In this document: piece by piece, positions 1,724 to 29,843 of the stretch
Layout: each line of letters starts with the position of its first letter
Numbering within the stretch: the stretch's first letter is position 1
Source: a virus
Strand: one strand, 5' to 3'
IMG/VR virus record: IMGVR_UViG_3300025732_002268
Span: 1 to 33,896 of that record
Length of the DNA stretch: 33,896 bases
Notes under the pieces: model-generated
The model's database searches: none
The model's input: the letters and a program-made list of their open reading frames with translations, nothing else
Told to the model about the DNA's origin: nothing
Position numbers and translations under genes: made by a program

Positions 1724-2359
1724 ATGGAGTGCGAATACTGCGGGAGGCCTGCTAAAAATTTAAGAGGACATGTACATCACCAAATTCGCTGTCCTAAAAA
1801 TCCAAATAGAGTTAGTCCTTCATACGGAATGTTAGGAAAAAAGGGAGCGAATCAATATACCTATGGTGCTATAATGTCCGAGGAAACAAAAGCAAAGATA
1901 AGCAAACATCAAGAAATTAACCCACAAATTTGGACAAATGAACAGCGAGAGCTCCACAGTCAAAAAATGAAATTGGCTGTTGAAAATCATCCTGAATCTT
2001 ACACTTCTGCAAATAGAGGAAGGACAAAGCAAATCGAGTATAACGGTATAAAGTTCCAAGGAAATTGGGAGCTAGAATTTTATAAATGGGCTCAATCAAA
2101 CGGGTATAATATAGTTAGAAATACTAAAGGATTTTCGTACCATTGGAATGGTAACAGAACTTACTTTCCTGATTTCTATCTAGTCTGTGAAGATGCTTAT
2201 GTAGAAGTAAAAGGTTATGAAACTGATAGAGATCAATCGAAATGGTCGCAATTTCCAAACAAACTATATATAATTAAAGAAGATGAAATTAACAAGATAA
2301 GAAAGAAAACATTTACAGGCCCCCTTAGCTCATGGATGGTTAGAGCAATCGACTCATGA
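1724..2359 (+). CDS. homing endonuclease, PD-(D/E)xK/VSR-like with zinc finger (211 aa)
   Basis: Residues 3-23 form a zinc-finger-like cluster (C3, C6, H16/H18/H19, C23). A SEETKAKISK segment near residue 50 resembles the NUMOD3 DNA-binding motif of homing endonucleases. The C-terminal half has Glu-containing WELEFYKWA, then YFPDFYL with P149-D150, then YVEVKGY with E161 and K163, matching a PD-(D/E)xK nuclease core. The gene sits just 5' of an intron-bearing tRNA. Its last 13 codons and stop overlap the tRNA 5' exon, and the stop TGA (2357-2359) straddles the exon/intron junction. It probably cuts the intronless tRNA-Ile locus to spread the intron (inference). Confidence 0.8.
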   Translation: MECEYCGRPAKNLRGHVHHQIRCPKNPNRVSPSYGMLGKKGANQYTYGAIMSEETKAKISKHQEINPQIWTNEQRELHSQKMKLAVENHPESYTSANRGRTKQIEYNGIKFQGNWELEFYKWAQSNGYNIVRNTKGFSYHWNGNRTYFPDFYLVCEDAYVEVKGYETDRDQSKWSQFPNKLYIIKEDEINKIRKKTFTGPLSSWMVRAIDS

Positions 2360-2595
2360 AAATGTTGTGCCATATATTAGGAAACTATATATGGGATGGT
2401 GTCAAATTCGGTGAAACCTAAGTGTAAAAATATGGCAACGCCGAGCCAAGCCTAATAGAAATATCAGGAAGGTGTAGAGACTAGACGGCACCCACCTAAG
2501 TCGTAAGATATGGTGAAGGCATAGTCCAGGGAGTAACGAAAGTTACACAAACCAGAATCGAGAGGTGCCAGGTTCGACTCCTGGAGGGGGCACCA
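2319..2595 (+). tRNA. tRNA-Ile(CAU) split by a group I intron
   Basis: The 5' exon is 2319-2357 and the 3' exon 2556-2595. Acceptor strand GCCCCCT (2319-2325) pairs fully with AGGGGGC (2585-2591), followed by discriminator A and an encoded CCA. D stem GCTC/GAGC, T stem CCAGG/CCTGG with loop TTCGACT, and an anticodon loop CTCATAA once the exons are joined. Anticodon CAT is at 2355-2357. The exons closely resemble E. coli tRNA-Ile2 (CAU; lysidine-modified, reads AUA) rather than tRNA-Met. The D loop is long (11 nt) and pair 27-43 is A-G. It could help decode AUA codons in phage mRNAs. Confidence 0.92.
2358..2555 (+). ncRNA. group I intron (IC3-like, Azoarcus tRNA-Ile type), 198 nt
   Basis: The intron follows anticodon U36 and ends in G. 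The internal guide GTG (2367-2369) can pair with anticodon CAT, giving the short P1 known from Azoarcus. P2 (2370-2394) is a hairpin capped by GAAA. P4/P6 elements lie at 2405-2411 and 2441-2447. The P7 strands are in AGAGACTAGACGGC (2476-2489) and CATAGTCC (2520-2527). P9 is GTAAC-GAAA-GTTAC (2533-2546). Core strings such as AACGCCGAGCCAAGC and GGTGAAGGCATAGTCCAGGG match my memory of the Azoarcus pre-tRNA-Ile intron. It has no internal ORF and should self-splice. Confidence 0.92.
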
Positions 2596-11204: not shown

Positions 11205-13112
11205 ATGAGCAAAGTCATTGGTATCGATTTAGGTACCACCAATAGTTGCGTAGCAGTTGTAGAGAATGGAACCACAAAGGTTCTAGAAAATGCCGAAGGC
11301 GCACGAACCACTCCCAGTATTGTTGCTTACACTGACGCAGAAGTCTTAGTTGGTGCACCAGCAAAACGTCAAGCAGTAACCAATCCCAAGAATACAATTT
11401 ATGCCGCAAAGCGTCTAATTGGTCGCCGCTTTGAGGAAGAAGCAGTACAAAAAGACATTGGCCTTATGCCATATAGCATCGTCAAGGCCGACAATGGTGA
11501 TGCTTGGATTGAGGCCAACGGTGAACGTATGGCACCACCTCAGGTGAGTGCTGAAGTACTGCGTAAGATGAAAAAGACCGCAGAGGACTATCTAGGCCAT
11601 GATGTTACCCAAGCTGTTATTACTGTTCCGGCCTATTTTAATGATAGTCAGCGTCAAGCTACTAAAGATGCTGGCCGCATTGCTGGCTTGGAAGTTCTTC
11701 GTATCATTAATGAACCGACTGCTGCCGCGCTGGCTTATGGCGTTGATAAATCGGATAAAGCGGATCGTAAGGTAGCTGTATACGATTTAGGTGGTGGTAC
11801 ATTTGACGTGTCAATCATTGAGATTTCCAATGTAGATGGTGACAAGCAAATCGAAGTACTTAGCACCAACGGTGACACGTTCCTAGGTGGTGAAGACTTT
11901 GACCAACGCTTGATGGACTACTTGATTGACGAGTTCAAACGGGAACAAGGTGTTGACCTCTCTAAAGATGTATTGGCTCTACAGCGTCTAAAAGAAGCAG
12001 CAGAAAAGGCCAAGATCGAATTGTCAAGTACGAACAGTACCGCAGTAAACTTGCCTTATGTTACTGCTGATGCTACTGGTCCCAAGCACATGAACATTAA
12101 CATCACTCGTGCTAAACTAGAAAGTCTGGTAGATGAGTTAATTCAACGCAGTGTAGGCCCATGCCAAACTGCCATGCGAGATGCTGGTGTCTCAACTGGG
12201 GACATTGACGAAGTTATTCTTGTTGGTGGCATGACTCGTATGCCCAAAGTACAAGATACTGTAGAAAAGTTGTTTGGTCGTGCTCCACGTCGAGACGTGA
12301 ACCCAGACGAAGCTGTAGCAGTTGGCGCTGCTGTACAAGGCGCTGTACTAGCAGGTGATCGTAAGGATGTGCTCTTGCTTGACGTTACTCCATTAAGTCT
12401 TGGTATTGAAACTTTAGGTGGTGTAATGACTAAAGTGATTCAAAAGAATACAACTATTCCTACCAAGCATAGCCAAGTATTCTCTACAGCCGAGCATAAC
12501 CAACCTGCTGTTACTATCAAGGTATTCCAAGGTGAGCGTGAAGTTGCTGTACATAATAAGTTGCTAGGTGAATTTAGTTTGGATGGTATTCCGCCAGCAC
12601 CAAAAGGACAGCCACAAATCGAAGTTACCTTTGACATTGACGCCAATGGTATTCTCAAAGTACGTGCAGCAGACAAGAACACTGGCAAAGAAAACAACAT
12701 CACTATCAAGGCCAGTTCAGGTCTAAGTGAGGCTGAAATTCAACGCATGGTAAAAGATGCCGAGGACAATGCCGAAGCTGATAAGAAAGTTGTTGAACTA
12801 GTTGGTGCTCGTAATAGTGCAGATAGTCAAATTGATTTTGTTAAGAAGGACTTTGATGAATATAAATCAAAGTTACCTGAGGACGAAGCTAAGAAAATCG
12901 AAGAGGCTATTGCAGCACTAGAAGAAGTAAAAAAGGGTGATGATCCAGAAGTGATTCGCACCAAGATTTCAGACATGATGCAGTCAACCAACGAGTTGTA
13001 TCGCATCAAGAGCGAGGCTGAAAAGGCAGCAGCCGAAGCTAAACCAGCAGAAGACAGCAAGGACACGGTTGTTGATGCTGAGTTTACTGAAAAACCTGCC
13101 GATAAGAAGTAA
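11205..13112 (+). CDS. dnaK: Hsp70 chaperone DnaK, full length (635 aa)
   Basis: All Hsp70 landmarks are present: [13 protein letters not shown] (residues 5-17), [47 protein letters not shown], and the linker [20 protein letters not shown] before the substrate-binding domain. The C-terminus ends in a helical lid and VVDAEFTEK, as in proteobacterial DnaK. Length is normal, so the gene is intact rather than a remnant. DnaK refolds proteins with DnaJ and GrpE, not seen here, so host co-chaperones are needed. It has its own promoter, RBS AAGGAG, and is followed by Hsp20. Likely acquired from a betaproteobacterial host; complete Hsp70 genes are rare in phages. Confidence 0.97.
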
Positions 13113-21884: not shown

Positions 21885-22520
21885 ATGGCTTTTGTTTATA
21901 AAATTACAAATACCATCACCAACAAATGTTATATTGGTTGGACAGGTAATTCTGTAGAAAATCGATGGACTGAGCATAAAGTTGCGGCATCCAAAAATAC
22001 CGACAACAGGAAATTTTATAATGCCTTGCGTAAGTACGGCACCGAGTTCTGGTCGGTAGAAACATTAATTGAAACATCTTCAAAAGAAGAAGCTAAATTA
22101 AAAGAAATAGAACTTATAGAATATTTTGACTCGTACAATAAGGGTTACAATGCAACTAAAGGTGGAGACGGTAACAATGGCATTATAATGTCTGAGGAAT
22201 CTAATCTTAGAAGAAGTGAAGCATTAAAAGGTAAACCAAAAAGCGAAGCAACAATTGAAAAATTCAAAGCAAGGACACAAACAGAGGAAACGACTGCTAA
22301 AATTTCTTTAGCTCACAAAGGTATGAAAAAACCTTGGGTTAAATGGTCTCCTGAACAAATTGCTAAACGGGCAATGACTAGAAGATCACTGACCAAAGAA
22401 CAATACGACACAATTCATAACTTACGTTTGACTGGTATGACGATACGAGAAATTCACCAATCAACAGGAATTTCTGCCGATTTAGTCAAAAAATGGCTTA
22501 AATTGCCTTGGGACTTGTGA
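21885..22520 (+). CDS. GIY-YIG homing endonuclease (211 aa)
   Basis: The N-terminal nuclease domain has AFVYKITNTITNKCYIGWTG, with VY as the GIY equivalent and Y16-I17-G18 as YIG. Then come NRWTEHK with the catalytic Arg and a Glu in IELIEYFDSYNKGYNATKGG. NUMOD3-type repeats (MSEESNLRRSEALKGK, TEETTAKISLAHKGMKKP) and a C-terminal helix-turn-helix (MTIREIHQSTGISADLVKKW) bind DNA. It is a free-standing gene, 4 bases after the previous stop and overlapping the next start (TGATG). It probably inserted between two phage genes and promotes its own spread (inference). Confidence 0.9.
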   Translation: MAFVYKITNTITNKCYIGWTGNSVENRWTEHKVAASKNTDNRKFYNALRKYGTEFWSVETLIETSSKEEAKLKEIELIEYFDSYNKGYNATKGGDGNNGIIMSEESNLRRSEALKGKPKSEATIEKFKARTQTEETTAKISLAHKGMKKPWVKWSPEQIAKRAMTRRSLTKEQYDTIHNLRLTGMTIREIHQSTGISADLVKKWLKLPWDL

Positions 22521-27598: not shown

Positions 27599-28723
27599 AT
27601 GATGTCAATCAAACGTAGGCTGGTGCATTTAGCCGTAGCCTCACTTACCGCTGTAGCACTGGCGGCATGTACTAAGAAAGAGGAAGCCAAACCCGCAGAG
27701 GCGCCTAAAGCAGCAGAGCAGTTAAAAGTGGGATTTATCTATGTGGGACCAGTGGGCGATGCTGGATGGACATTTGCACACGACAATGGGCGTAAGCATA
27801 TTGAAGCCAAATTTGGCGATCGGATCAAAACTACTTTTGTAGAAAAGGTACCTGAAGGTGCTGATGCAGAACGTGTTATCCGTGACTTAGTAGCACAAGG
27901 GCACAAGTTAATCTTTGCTACATCATTTGGATTTGGTGATGCCATGGAAAAGGTAGCCAAGGATCACCCTGATGTCAAGTTTGAACATGCCACTGGTTAC
28001 AAAACTTCAGAAAACCTGCGTGTATATGAAGCCAAGTTTTATGAAGATGCTTACATGGCTGGTGTAGTAGCAGGCACCGTAACCAAAACTAACACCATTG
28101 GATTCGTGGGCAGTTTTCCAATTCCTGAAGTCTTGCGTAATATCAACGCATTTACTCTAGGTGCTCGCAGTGTGAATCCTAAGGTAACTACTAAGGTAGT
28201 CTGGGTCAACACATGGTTTGATCCGCCAAAGGAAAGTGAAGCAGCGCAGGCCTTGATTAATCAAAGGGCTGATGTATTGCTACAGAACACTGATTCCACT
28301 GCTGTACTACAAACCGCAGAAAAGAATGGTAAGTTTGCCTTTGGTTGGGATAGTGACATGAGCGCATTTGCGCCAAAGGCACACTTAGGCTCAGCTGTGG
28401 TCAACTGGGGTCCTTACTATGAAAAAGCAGTAAACGATGTGCTCAACGGTACGTGGAAAACTGCGGATACAAAGTGGGGAACCAAAGAAGGTGCCAATGA
28501 CTTGATCAAGGTCGCCGACTCGGTACCCGAATCAGCTCGGAAGCGTGTTGATGAAATCAAAGCTGGATTAAAAGCCGGTACCTTTAATGTATTCCAAGGT
28601 CCGTTAAAAGACAATACCGGTAAGGTAGTGCTAGAAAAGGACCAAGTGGCAGATGATGCTTGGAAAGGTCGAATTAATTTCTACATAGAAGGTGTTGAAG
28701 GCCGAATTCCGGCTAGCAAATAA
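27599..28723 (+). CDS. BMP/PnrA-type substrate-binding lipoprotein (374 aa)
   Basis: A lipoprotein signal is clear: basic MSIKRRL, a hydrophobic core, and lipobox ALAAC with C24. After an Ala/Pro/Lys linker the Med/PnrA domain follows. It includes LKVGFIYVGPVGDAGWTFAH, IFATSFGFGDAMEKVAKDHP, GVVAGTVTKTNTIGFVGSFP, ALINQRADVLLQNTDSTAVL and FGWDSDMSAFAPKAHLGSAV. Cellular members bind purine nucleosides or related ligands for an ABC importer. No permease or ATPase is nearby, so it must use the host transporter or simply bind a ligand. Full-length and intact. A nutrient-scavenging or receptor-masking role for the phage is inferred. Confidence 0.93.
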   Translation: MMSIKRRLVHLAVASLTAVALAACTKKEEAKPAEAPKAAEQLKVGFIYVGPVGDAGWTFAHDNGRKHIEAKFGDRIKTTFVEKVPEGADAERVIRDLVAQGHKLIFATSFGFGDAMEKVAKDHPDVKFEHATGYKTSENLRVYEAKFYEDAYMAGVVAGTVTKTNTIGFVGSFPIPEVLRNINAFTLGARSVNPKVTTKVVWVNTWFDPPKESEAAQALINQRADVLLQNTDSTAVLQTAEKNGKFAFGWDSDMSAFAPKAHLGSAVVNWGPYYEKAVNDVLNGTWKTADTKWGTKEGANDLIKVADSVPESARKRVDEIKAGLKAGTFNVFQGPLKDNTGKVVLEKDQVADDAWKGRINFYIEGVEGRIPASK

Positions 28724-28782: not shown

Positions 28783-29334
28783 ATGTTAGAAGCTCAACTT
28801 ACAGCATGTCTTAAAAAGCATTTAGAATTTCCAGATTCTGGTAACCTACAGCAGCGTGGTATTGCTGATAGAATTGAAGCTGCCTGCAATGAAATTATAA
28901 ACGAAAATTTTCAAGATGTGAAACCTGCTACTAGTCGCAGAAGTATAGAGGACATTAGCATAGGGACAACTTACGTCGATCATAAAACCAGTGATGTGGC
29001 GTTAGATTTCAAAATGCCCAACATGATTAGCATAGATAGACTACGTAAGTTAGATCGCGAGCTCATATATAACTTTGTTATCTATGACAGTCGAGCAAAA
29101 ACTATTGTGGATACCTTTGCTCTTAATGTATATGAGTTAAACTGGGACTATCTGAAAATACAAAACTTGGGCAAGGGACAACTACAAATTACTAACATGG
29201 CTGCATTTTTGGCCGATCCAAGAAGTCAACTTACAAAAGAAGAATGGTTGAAACGTCTGCATCAAGCTGCTCGTGATTTTTATGCCAAAGTACAGCGTGA
29301 TGCAGAACGTAGACAACGTGAGTGGTCTAAATAA
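28783..29334 (+). CDS. hypothetical protein, possible PD-(D/E)xK nuclease-like (183 aa)
   Basis: The N-terminal helices (LTACLKKHLEFPDSGNLQQR, IADRIEAACNEIINENFQDV) precede a beta-rich core IGTTYVDHKTSDVALDFKMP, followed by IYNFVIYDSRAKTIVDTFAL. An E-D pair before D-H-K in the core could represent the PD-(D/E)xK nuclease fold of restriction-type enzymes, but the match is weak. The C-terminus is a charged helix rich in Arg and Gln. It lies just before the tmRNA promoter; its last codons overlap the late promoter octamer. Confidence 0.6.
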   Translation: MLEAQLTACLKKHLEFPDSGNLQQRGIADRIEAACNEIINENFQDVKPATSRRSIEDISIGTTYVDHKTSDVALDFKMPNMISIDRLRKLDRELIYNFVIYDSRAKTIVDTFALNVYELNWDYLKIQNLGKGQLQITNMAAFLADPRSQLTKEEWLKRLHQAARDFYAKVQRDAERRQREWSK

Positions 29335-29337
29335 ATA
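29330..29337 (+). promoter_or_regulatory. late promoter-like AATAAATA before the tmRNA
   Basis: One mismatch to TATAAATA. Transcription would start near 29343, just upstream of the tmRNA acceptor half, so the tmRNA would be a late-phase product. Confidence 0.55.
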
Positions 29338-29407
29338 CTAGTTATTGTTGTATGAAGCAAGCAGAAATGTGCTGCGGACGCGGGTTCGAATCCCGCCTGG
29401 TCCACCA

Positions 29408-29563
29408 TAAAGATACTATGGAAGATAACGACGAAAGAGCTAGAGTAGATGTTAAAACACCTTGGTTCAAGTTAGCTATAGATAACATCGACTGGAAAGA
29501 AATTTTGGTTATTGCAATGGTTCTTTTAGCCACTGTCTATATTATTAAAGCATAGTATCTTTA
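29408..29563 (+). repeat. perfect 13-bp inverted repeat bordering the tmRNA intervening segment
   Basis: TAAAGATACTATG (29408-29420) begins directly after the encoded CCA, and CATAGTATCTTTA (29551-29563) ends four bases before the 5' acceptor strand. Pairing extends the acceptor stem region and would present the two processing sites together. It also holds the start and stop codons of the ORF in the segment. Confidence 0.85.
29418..29555 (+). CDS. small membrane protein ORF inside the tmRNA intervening segment (45 aa)
   Basis: ATG 29418 and TAG 29553 lie in the two arms of the inverted repeat, so the ORF fills the intervening segment almost exactly. The product has an acidic, polar N-terminus (MEDNDERARVDV) and one hydrophobic helix (ILVIAMVLLATVYIIKA), typical of a small single-pass membrane protein. 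No strong RBS is visible, and the stem may hide the start. It could be a holin-like or regulatory peptide made from the precursor or the excised piece. Its protein-like composition supports it, but translation is unproven. Confidence 0.55.
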   Translation: MEDNDERARVDVKTPWFKLAIDNIDWKEILVIAMVLLATVYIIKA

Positions 29564-29759
29564 TGATGGGCCAGACATGGTTTCGACGGGGCAAATAGTA
29601 AGTAAGTGGACAACTCGGCAATGCTAAAGTCGTAGGGTTAGGACTACCTGGCCAAAGAAGCAAATTAAATAGACGCAAACGACGACTATTTCTATCAGGA
29701 CCTTAAGCTAGCCGCTTAAACCTGACGGGGCAGGAAAAGGCCTTGTAACCCAACAAACC

Positions 29760-29779
29760 AGGGGCTTCGGCCCCTTTTT
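29760..29779 (+). terminator. rho-independent terminator at the tmRNA end
   Basis: AGGGGC (29760-29765), TTCG loop, GCCCCT (29770-29775) and TTTT. It closes the tmRNA transcript about 40 bases after the tag stop codon. Confidence 0.88.
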
Positions 29780-29843
29780 CTACATAGTTATTGGTAATAT
29801 AACCCATGATTAATCCGATAACTTATTTGTTAACTCGAAAAGG

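Follow-up and report, generated by a model that had tools for sequence, protein, structure and literature searches.

A circularly permuted phage tmRNA with a predicted small-protein gene nested in its intervening sequence

Permuted tmRNAs and coding spacers described to date

Bacterial circularly permuted tmRNAs (RF04321; alpha, beta and cyanobacterial types) contain a hairpin-closed intervening sequence (IVS) between the acceptor half and the half with the tag frame. In 39 parsed bacterial permuted tmRNAs sampled from two orders, the IVS is mostly 13-61 nt in length, with a median of 30 nt and a maximum of 116 nt (two values, 1 and 2 nt, reflect failed parsing), and none of these tmRNAs contains an ORF similar to the cargo found in phages. 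The locus analysed here belongs to an IMG/VR record of 33,896 bases (IMGVR_UViG_3300025732_002268) from a freshwater virus that infects bacteria; the full length of the record is referred to as the window. It shares with the bacterial RNAs the order of the halves, the G3-U70 pairing, the TCGA motif, the LAA end of the tag and the position of the hairpin-closed IVS; however, the bacterial IVS is short, whereas that of the window spans 160 nt and is predicted to be coding. Within the two-order bacterial sample, a coding IVS looks like a phage trait.

The permuted form itself is not new in phages and has been reported since the 2022 description of the Methylophilales phage Melnitz, which encodes a two-piece tmRNA; in the same article, 53 of 133 distinct phage tmRNA structures are called two-piece (PMC9004378). 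The ssrA of Melnitz resembles that of the window in being a phage-borne permuted tmRNA but differs in its alpha-type score, in the glutamine riboswitch that follows it and in its tag. The Melnitz IVS contains an ORF (MFKWLSKTR...) that is preceded by a Shine-Dalgarno (SD) sequence and runs into the 5' half. No description of this ORF is found in the available part of PMC9004378, and its matches are confined to Melnitz strains.

Other tmRNA spacers contain a tRNA-Ala in one case and a repetitive element in another, as given in the available part of PMC11915505. A protein gene in a tmRNA IVS is not mentioned in the available parts of PMC11915505 and PMC9004378, and no earlier report of protein genes in the IVS of permuted tmRNAs is found in the open-licence literature. 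Some tmRNA genes contain group I introns that encode homing endonucleases and likewise place coding sequence in a part that is removed, but these introns differ from the IVS genes in their T-loop position, in self-splicing and in carrying endonucleases only (PMC11915505). The closest analogue is the IVS of the Coxiella 23S rRNA with its S23p ORF, which is a protein ORF in the removed spacer of a stable RNA precursor (PMC4990558). The 23S IVS holds one family (S23p), is described as a selfish element and has a product that is apparently not made in vivo (PMC4990558), which by analogy may serve as a warning for nested tmRNA ORFs; the slot in phage tmRNAs, in contrast, holds many unrelated small genes.

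The permuted tmRNA of the window and its nested reading frame

The initial annotation described positions 29343-29779 as a circularly permuted tmRNA in a phage, with acceptor strands that pair perfectly, a G3-U70 pair and a tag ending in LAA; this description is borne out, including the span. Both programs that had been proposed as a check call the permuted form: ARAGORN places a permuted tmRNA at 29315-29810 (+) with the tag ANDDYFYQDLKLAA, and the Rfam model RF04321 (tmRNA_permuted) matches 29346-29719 with 103 bits (E=3.1e-19; gathering score 47), complete over model positions 1-213. As shown in Table 1, the T-arm, the acceptor 3' strand, A73 and CCA all precede the 5' strand with the D-loop and the tag half. 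Between the two pieces, the acceptor strands are paired at 7/7 positions, including G3-U70, which is the alanine identity pair, and the tag has the hydrophobic end LAA. A one-piece tmRNA, the reading against which the permuted form was to be judged, is ruled out, as RF00023 aligns to a fragment only with 37.7 bits, below its cut-off of 47. Nothing in the present data supports the suggestion that a phage copy may explain the spread of the permuted form. The suggestion that the tmRNA points to the host is not supported either: none of the alpha, beta and cyanobacterial subtype models (RF01849, RF01850 and RF01851) exceeds its cut-off for the window, and the merged permuted model is the only Rfam tmRNA family that does. 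The viral assignment of the record is in agreement with its content, as DnaK, homing endonucleases and other phage protein families are encoded, and close relatives of the DnaK are encoded by virus contigs that reach 383 kb.

Table 1. Features of the window and of its tmRNA locus
Feature	Position	Strand	Basis or remark
Endonuclease-like ORF	1724-2359		phrog_15137, E=2e-21
Group I intron	2345-2548		RF00028, 74.9 bits; overlaps the end of the endonuclease-like ORF
Full-length DnaK	11205-13112		HSP70, 860 bits; marker common to many virus contigs (up to 383 kb)
GIY-YIG homing endonuclease	21885-22520		phrog_314, E=1.9e-32
PnrA/Bmp-like substrate-binding protein	27599-28723		PF02608, E=1.5e-57; shortly upstream of the tmRNA
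Acceptor (3' tRNA-like) half	29346-29407	+	RF04321 alignment, coordinates
T-arm GCGGG-TTCGAAT-CCCGC	29380-29396	+	RF04321 alignment
Acceptor 3' strand CTGGTCC	29397-29403	+	
A73	29404	+	
CCA	29405-29407	+	
IVS stem 5' arm CATAAAGATACTATG	29406-29420	+	perfect 15-bp inverted repeat with 29551-29565
IVS, 160 nt, between CCA and G1 of the acceptor 5' strand	29408-29567	+	
Predicted nested ORF MEDNDERARVDVKTPWFKLAIDNIDWKEILVIAMVLLATVYIIKA with stop, 45 aa	29418-29555	+	shuffles, codon log-odds, hydropathy
IVS stem 3' arm CATAGTATCTTTATG	29551-29565	+	holds the ORF stop codon TAG
Start of the 5' tRNA-like half, D-loop region ACATGGTTTCGACGGGGC	29568-29592	+	RF04321 alignment
Acceptor 5' strand GGGCCAG	29568-29574	+	
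Tag frame ANDDYFYQDLKLAA with stop, GCA resume codon to TAA	29675-29719	+	ARAGORN, coordinates
Probable intrinsic terminator AGGGGCTTCGGCCCCTTTTT	29760-29779	+	sequence; GC hairpin and T-run

The initial annotation includes neither the 160-nt IVS nor the inverted repeat of 15 bp at its ends nor the 45-aa ORF. The stem formed by the ends of the IVS is almost continuous with the acceptor stem, and the predicted duplex has an energy of -35.1 kcal/mol. The 5' arm holds a weak SD-like AAAGA (29409-29413) together with the start codon of the ORF, which lies inside the perfect stem, and the stop codon is located 12 nt upstream of G1. The ORF has the architecture of the class that is described below, namely sense orientation, a start in the 5' stem arm and a stop in the 3' arm. 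As judged by hydropathy, the 45-aa peptide is acidic at its N-terminus and contains one predicted membrane helix.

Alternatively, the locus may be an ordinary phage permuted tmRNA and nothing more, in which the 45-aa frame is open by chance in a non-coding spacer. Such a chance frame is consistent with the weak SD of the window, as the 5' arm contains AAAGA and not the canonical sequence (AAGGA or AAGGAG is found upstream of 31 of the 41 nested ORFs of at least 30 aa), and with the lack of any convincing homologue of the ORF in searches with a degenerate DNA pattern and with tblastn over all loci and the phage collection. Additionally, the IVS length ranges over 51-160 nt in tmRNAs whose tag half is nearly identical to that of the window, and several of these IVSs are non-coding; short IVSs as a group contain no excess of ORFs, and 3% of shuffles give a nested ORF when the stem is preserved. 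However, dinucleotide shuffling of the IVS produces an ORF as long as that of the window in 0.36% of cases, and the codon log-odds are +14.8 bits in frame compared with -9.6 and -11.0 bits in the two remaining sense frames (P=0.0005 by comparison with shuffles). The IVS of the window also falls within a length class in which 15 of 17 independent IVSs are filled by an ORF, and the locus L568, which has a related tag half, carries a different nested ORF for a membrane peptide. A chance frame thus appears improbable, and the IVS of the window is likely to be a nested gene for a single-pass membrane peptide, the expression of which is predicted from the sequence; this estimate applies jointly to the gene and to the gene-slot explanation given below.

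Because near-identical tag halves carry differing IVSs, the IVS is exchanged while the tag half stays in place. The exchange near the window shows a pattern that fits a cargo slot, for which no single cargo is needed, and the ORF of the window is itself dispensable, since the IVSs of close relatives lack it.

Intervening sequences among phage permuted tmRNAs

Phage permuted tmRNAs were sampled by DnaK homology, by patterns of both tRNA-like halves and by one SD-containing pattern, the last of which was kept separate as biased. Parsing with ARAGORN and the acceptor pairs yields 265 IVSs (211 distinct) in 135 clusters, 112 of which are unbiased for ORFs. The counts of ORF-filled IVSs by length use one representative per unbiased IVS cluster, recruited by tmRNA sequence or DnaK homology and not by ORFs; the 5'-half pattern through which some of these loci were recruited starts with GAT, which are the bases after the common position of the TGA stop, and does not require the stop. 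RF04321 exceeds its cut-off in 19 of 50 records (49 DnaK-bearing relatives and L082), and permuted tmRNAs are also found in Stenotrophomonas and Xanthomonas phages. Some relatives of the tmRNA exceed a subtype cut-off, L082 that of the beta model and L375 and L328 that of the alpha model. A scan of genome_contigs with a CCACCA-SD-ATG pattern returns no permuted tmRNA that is called by ARAGORN.

Among IVSs of at least 140 nt, a sense ORF fills 15 of 17, compared with 0.17±0.41 expected by shuffling and 0 in antisense. The two exceptions are L231, in which an ORF continues beyond the 5' half with no stop codon, and L111, which is non-coding. ORF-filled IVSs number 9 of 19 at 100-140 nt (1.35 expected) and 8 of 24 at 80-100 nt (3.6 expected), whereas no excess is observed below 80 nt (11 of 45 versus 12.0 expected), and many short phage IVSs contain no ORF. 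Differences at codon positions 1, 2 and 3 are 0.20, 0.11 and 0.31 in the ORF clusters, compared with the nearly flat 0.08, 0.08 and 0.11 in the non-ORF clusters. A chance origin of the nested ORFs as a class is ruled out by the shuffles, the antisense control and the codon positions.

The stop codon ends 1 nt before the mature 5' end in 26 of the 41 nested ORFs of at least 30 aa and is often TGA. The pooled pS and pN values are 0.465 and 0.153 over 18 homologous pairs, not all of which are independent, and these estimates indicate that the nested ORFs with homologues are under purifying selection. Several cargoes belong to recognizable families: the nested ORF of L375 matches DUF2061 (E=3.5e-20), that of L373 matches PGDYG (3.4e-6), and a phrog_419 match (9.7e-12) is reported beside the latter. 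Homologues of cargoes exist elsewhere as free-standing, ordinary genes (L161, L226, L154 and L421), and the L328 cargo has a homologue in Melnitz that is encoded directly upstream of the permuted tmRNA. When five other nested proteins were compared with annotated phages, matches were obtained for those of L375 and L328 only. By prediction, 15 of 43 cargo clusters (approximately one third) are membrane-inserted.

A 122-aa cargo is present in the IVSs of L658-L670, in which the acceptor halves and tags differ, and has a pN/pS of 0.19; a weak Pfam match, a best Foldseek E of 0.03 and a pLDDT of 65 are suggestive of a GNAT-like fold. In L671 (3001-3351), a homologue of this cargo lies within a longer frame with GVAEG repeats on its flanks. 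The cargoes are shown to be many unrelated small genes that are swapped among the tmRNA bodies of aquatic phages.

The IVS ORFs may also be regarded as part of a selfish element that inserts in tmRNA genes, similar to the 23S rRNA IVS with S23p (PMC4990558) or to the homing endonucleases of group I introns. The fixed site, the removal of the IVS from the RNA, the presence of one cargo in many tmRNA bodies and the other mobile elements in the window (the group I intron and the GIY-YIG endonuclease) would all be compatible with such an element. However, no nuclease, integrase or S23p-like cargo is found among the nested ORF families tested, including that of the window; the cargoes are mutually unrelated, several have free-standing homologues, and the IVS is constitutive in every permuted tmRNA, including those of bacteria. 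A selfish element is therefore considered very unlikely, and a slot for small genes remains the preferred explanation.

Some loci fall outside these counts or hold other contents. In L097 (1699-1772, minus strand), the IVS of a permuted tmRNA holds a tRNA-Arg(CCG) and no protein gene. L335, L410, L419 and L430 have permuted tmRNAs with nested ORFs that are not part of the ARAGORN-based set, apparently owing to an unusual 5' half (...CGAAATAGGATCGAC...). UTS52133.1 of Synechococcus phage BUCT-ZZ01 (ON615601; L656 1725-1919) was rejected as a nested gene, as its frame opens before the acceptor half and continues through it; this annotated CDS is probably a false gene call.

Stem pairing, proposed expression and implications

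The two ends of an IVS pair with -10.7 kcal/mol, compared with -4.7 kcal/mol for swapped partners (128 clusters), and in the 25 ORF-bearing IVSs with a called SD, folding prediction gives 98% pairing of this SD with the 3' arm. Since the SD pairs with the 3' arm, folding prediction suggests that ribosome access competes with stem closure.

The locus is likely to be a phage circularly permuted two-piece tmRNA with a nested small protein gene in its IVS. For its transcription, processing, translation and timing, and for the function of the peptide, we infer the following scheme. One transcript would contain the acceptor half, the IVS and the tag half in this order, and the paired IVS ends would lengthen the acceptor stem, which would bring the halves together for processing. 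The release of the two pieces by tRNA processing is established for bacterial two-piece tmRNAs, and because known two-piece tmRNAs are processed in this manner, host RNase P and 3' tRNA processing would be expected to cut the phage transcript at CCA and G1, yielding two tmRNA pieces and the IVS. The discarded IVS would double as a small messenger that is read before or during processing, with the SD (canonical in most relatives and weak in the window) and the start codon within the 5' arm or next to it and the stop in the 3' arm. The ribosome may start before the 3' arm is transcribed, and a closed stem should block initiation. Across aquatic phages, the slot holds many unrelated small genes, and in the window it would hold the gene for the 45-aa single-pass membrane peptide. 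As no SmpB is found in 22 phage records, many of which are fragments, the tmRNA would depend on the SmpB of the host.

The position of many stops raises another reading, in which trans-translation controls the production of the peptide: with the stop removed or exposed by processing, the IVS would become a non-stop message, the product of which is tagged by the tmRNA from the same locus, and this would resemble the control of arfA (PMC10107115). The stops that end 1 nt before the processing site (26 of 41) agree with such control, as do the SD-preceded ORFs of L193, L231, L241, L330, L350, L363, L426 and Melnitz (L674), which have no stop in the IVS, enter the 5' half and would become non-stop messages after cleavage. 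The stop of the window, however, would survive cleavage, as it lies upstream of G1, and control of this type is rather doubtful as the explanation of the locus. A mutual regulation is equally tentative, in which ribosomes on the IVS message hold the stem open and delay the maturation of the tmRNA, and the shortened or stopless message is silenced by trans-translation after the tmRNA has been processed. If this were true, the spacer of its own rescue RNA would provide the phage with a self-timed burst of a small protein, in many cases a membrane-active one.

Returning to the nested gene in a two-piece tmRNA, we conclude from the sequence comparisons that the discarded spacer of the tmRNA serves aquatic phages as a slot in which small genes are placed, with expression being predicted. 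Permuted phage tmRNAs were already known, and the spacer as a gene slot is rated as the new element. So far, this spacer has been regarded as waste; should it prove to be a routine site of phage genes, tmRNA loci would be a source of small phage proteins, which are skipped by standard annotation because the region is masked as RNA. Melnitz is a cultured phage with a permuted tmRNA. If the proposal is true, a functional RNA and an mRNA would come from a common precursor, there would be a physical overlap between translation and processing of the tRNA type, and phages would have a selective reason to keep the permuted form. Additionally, the maturation of the tmRNA would be linked to the expression of small, often membrane, proteins during infection.
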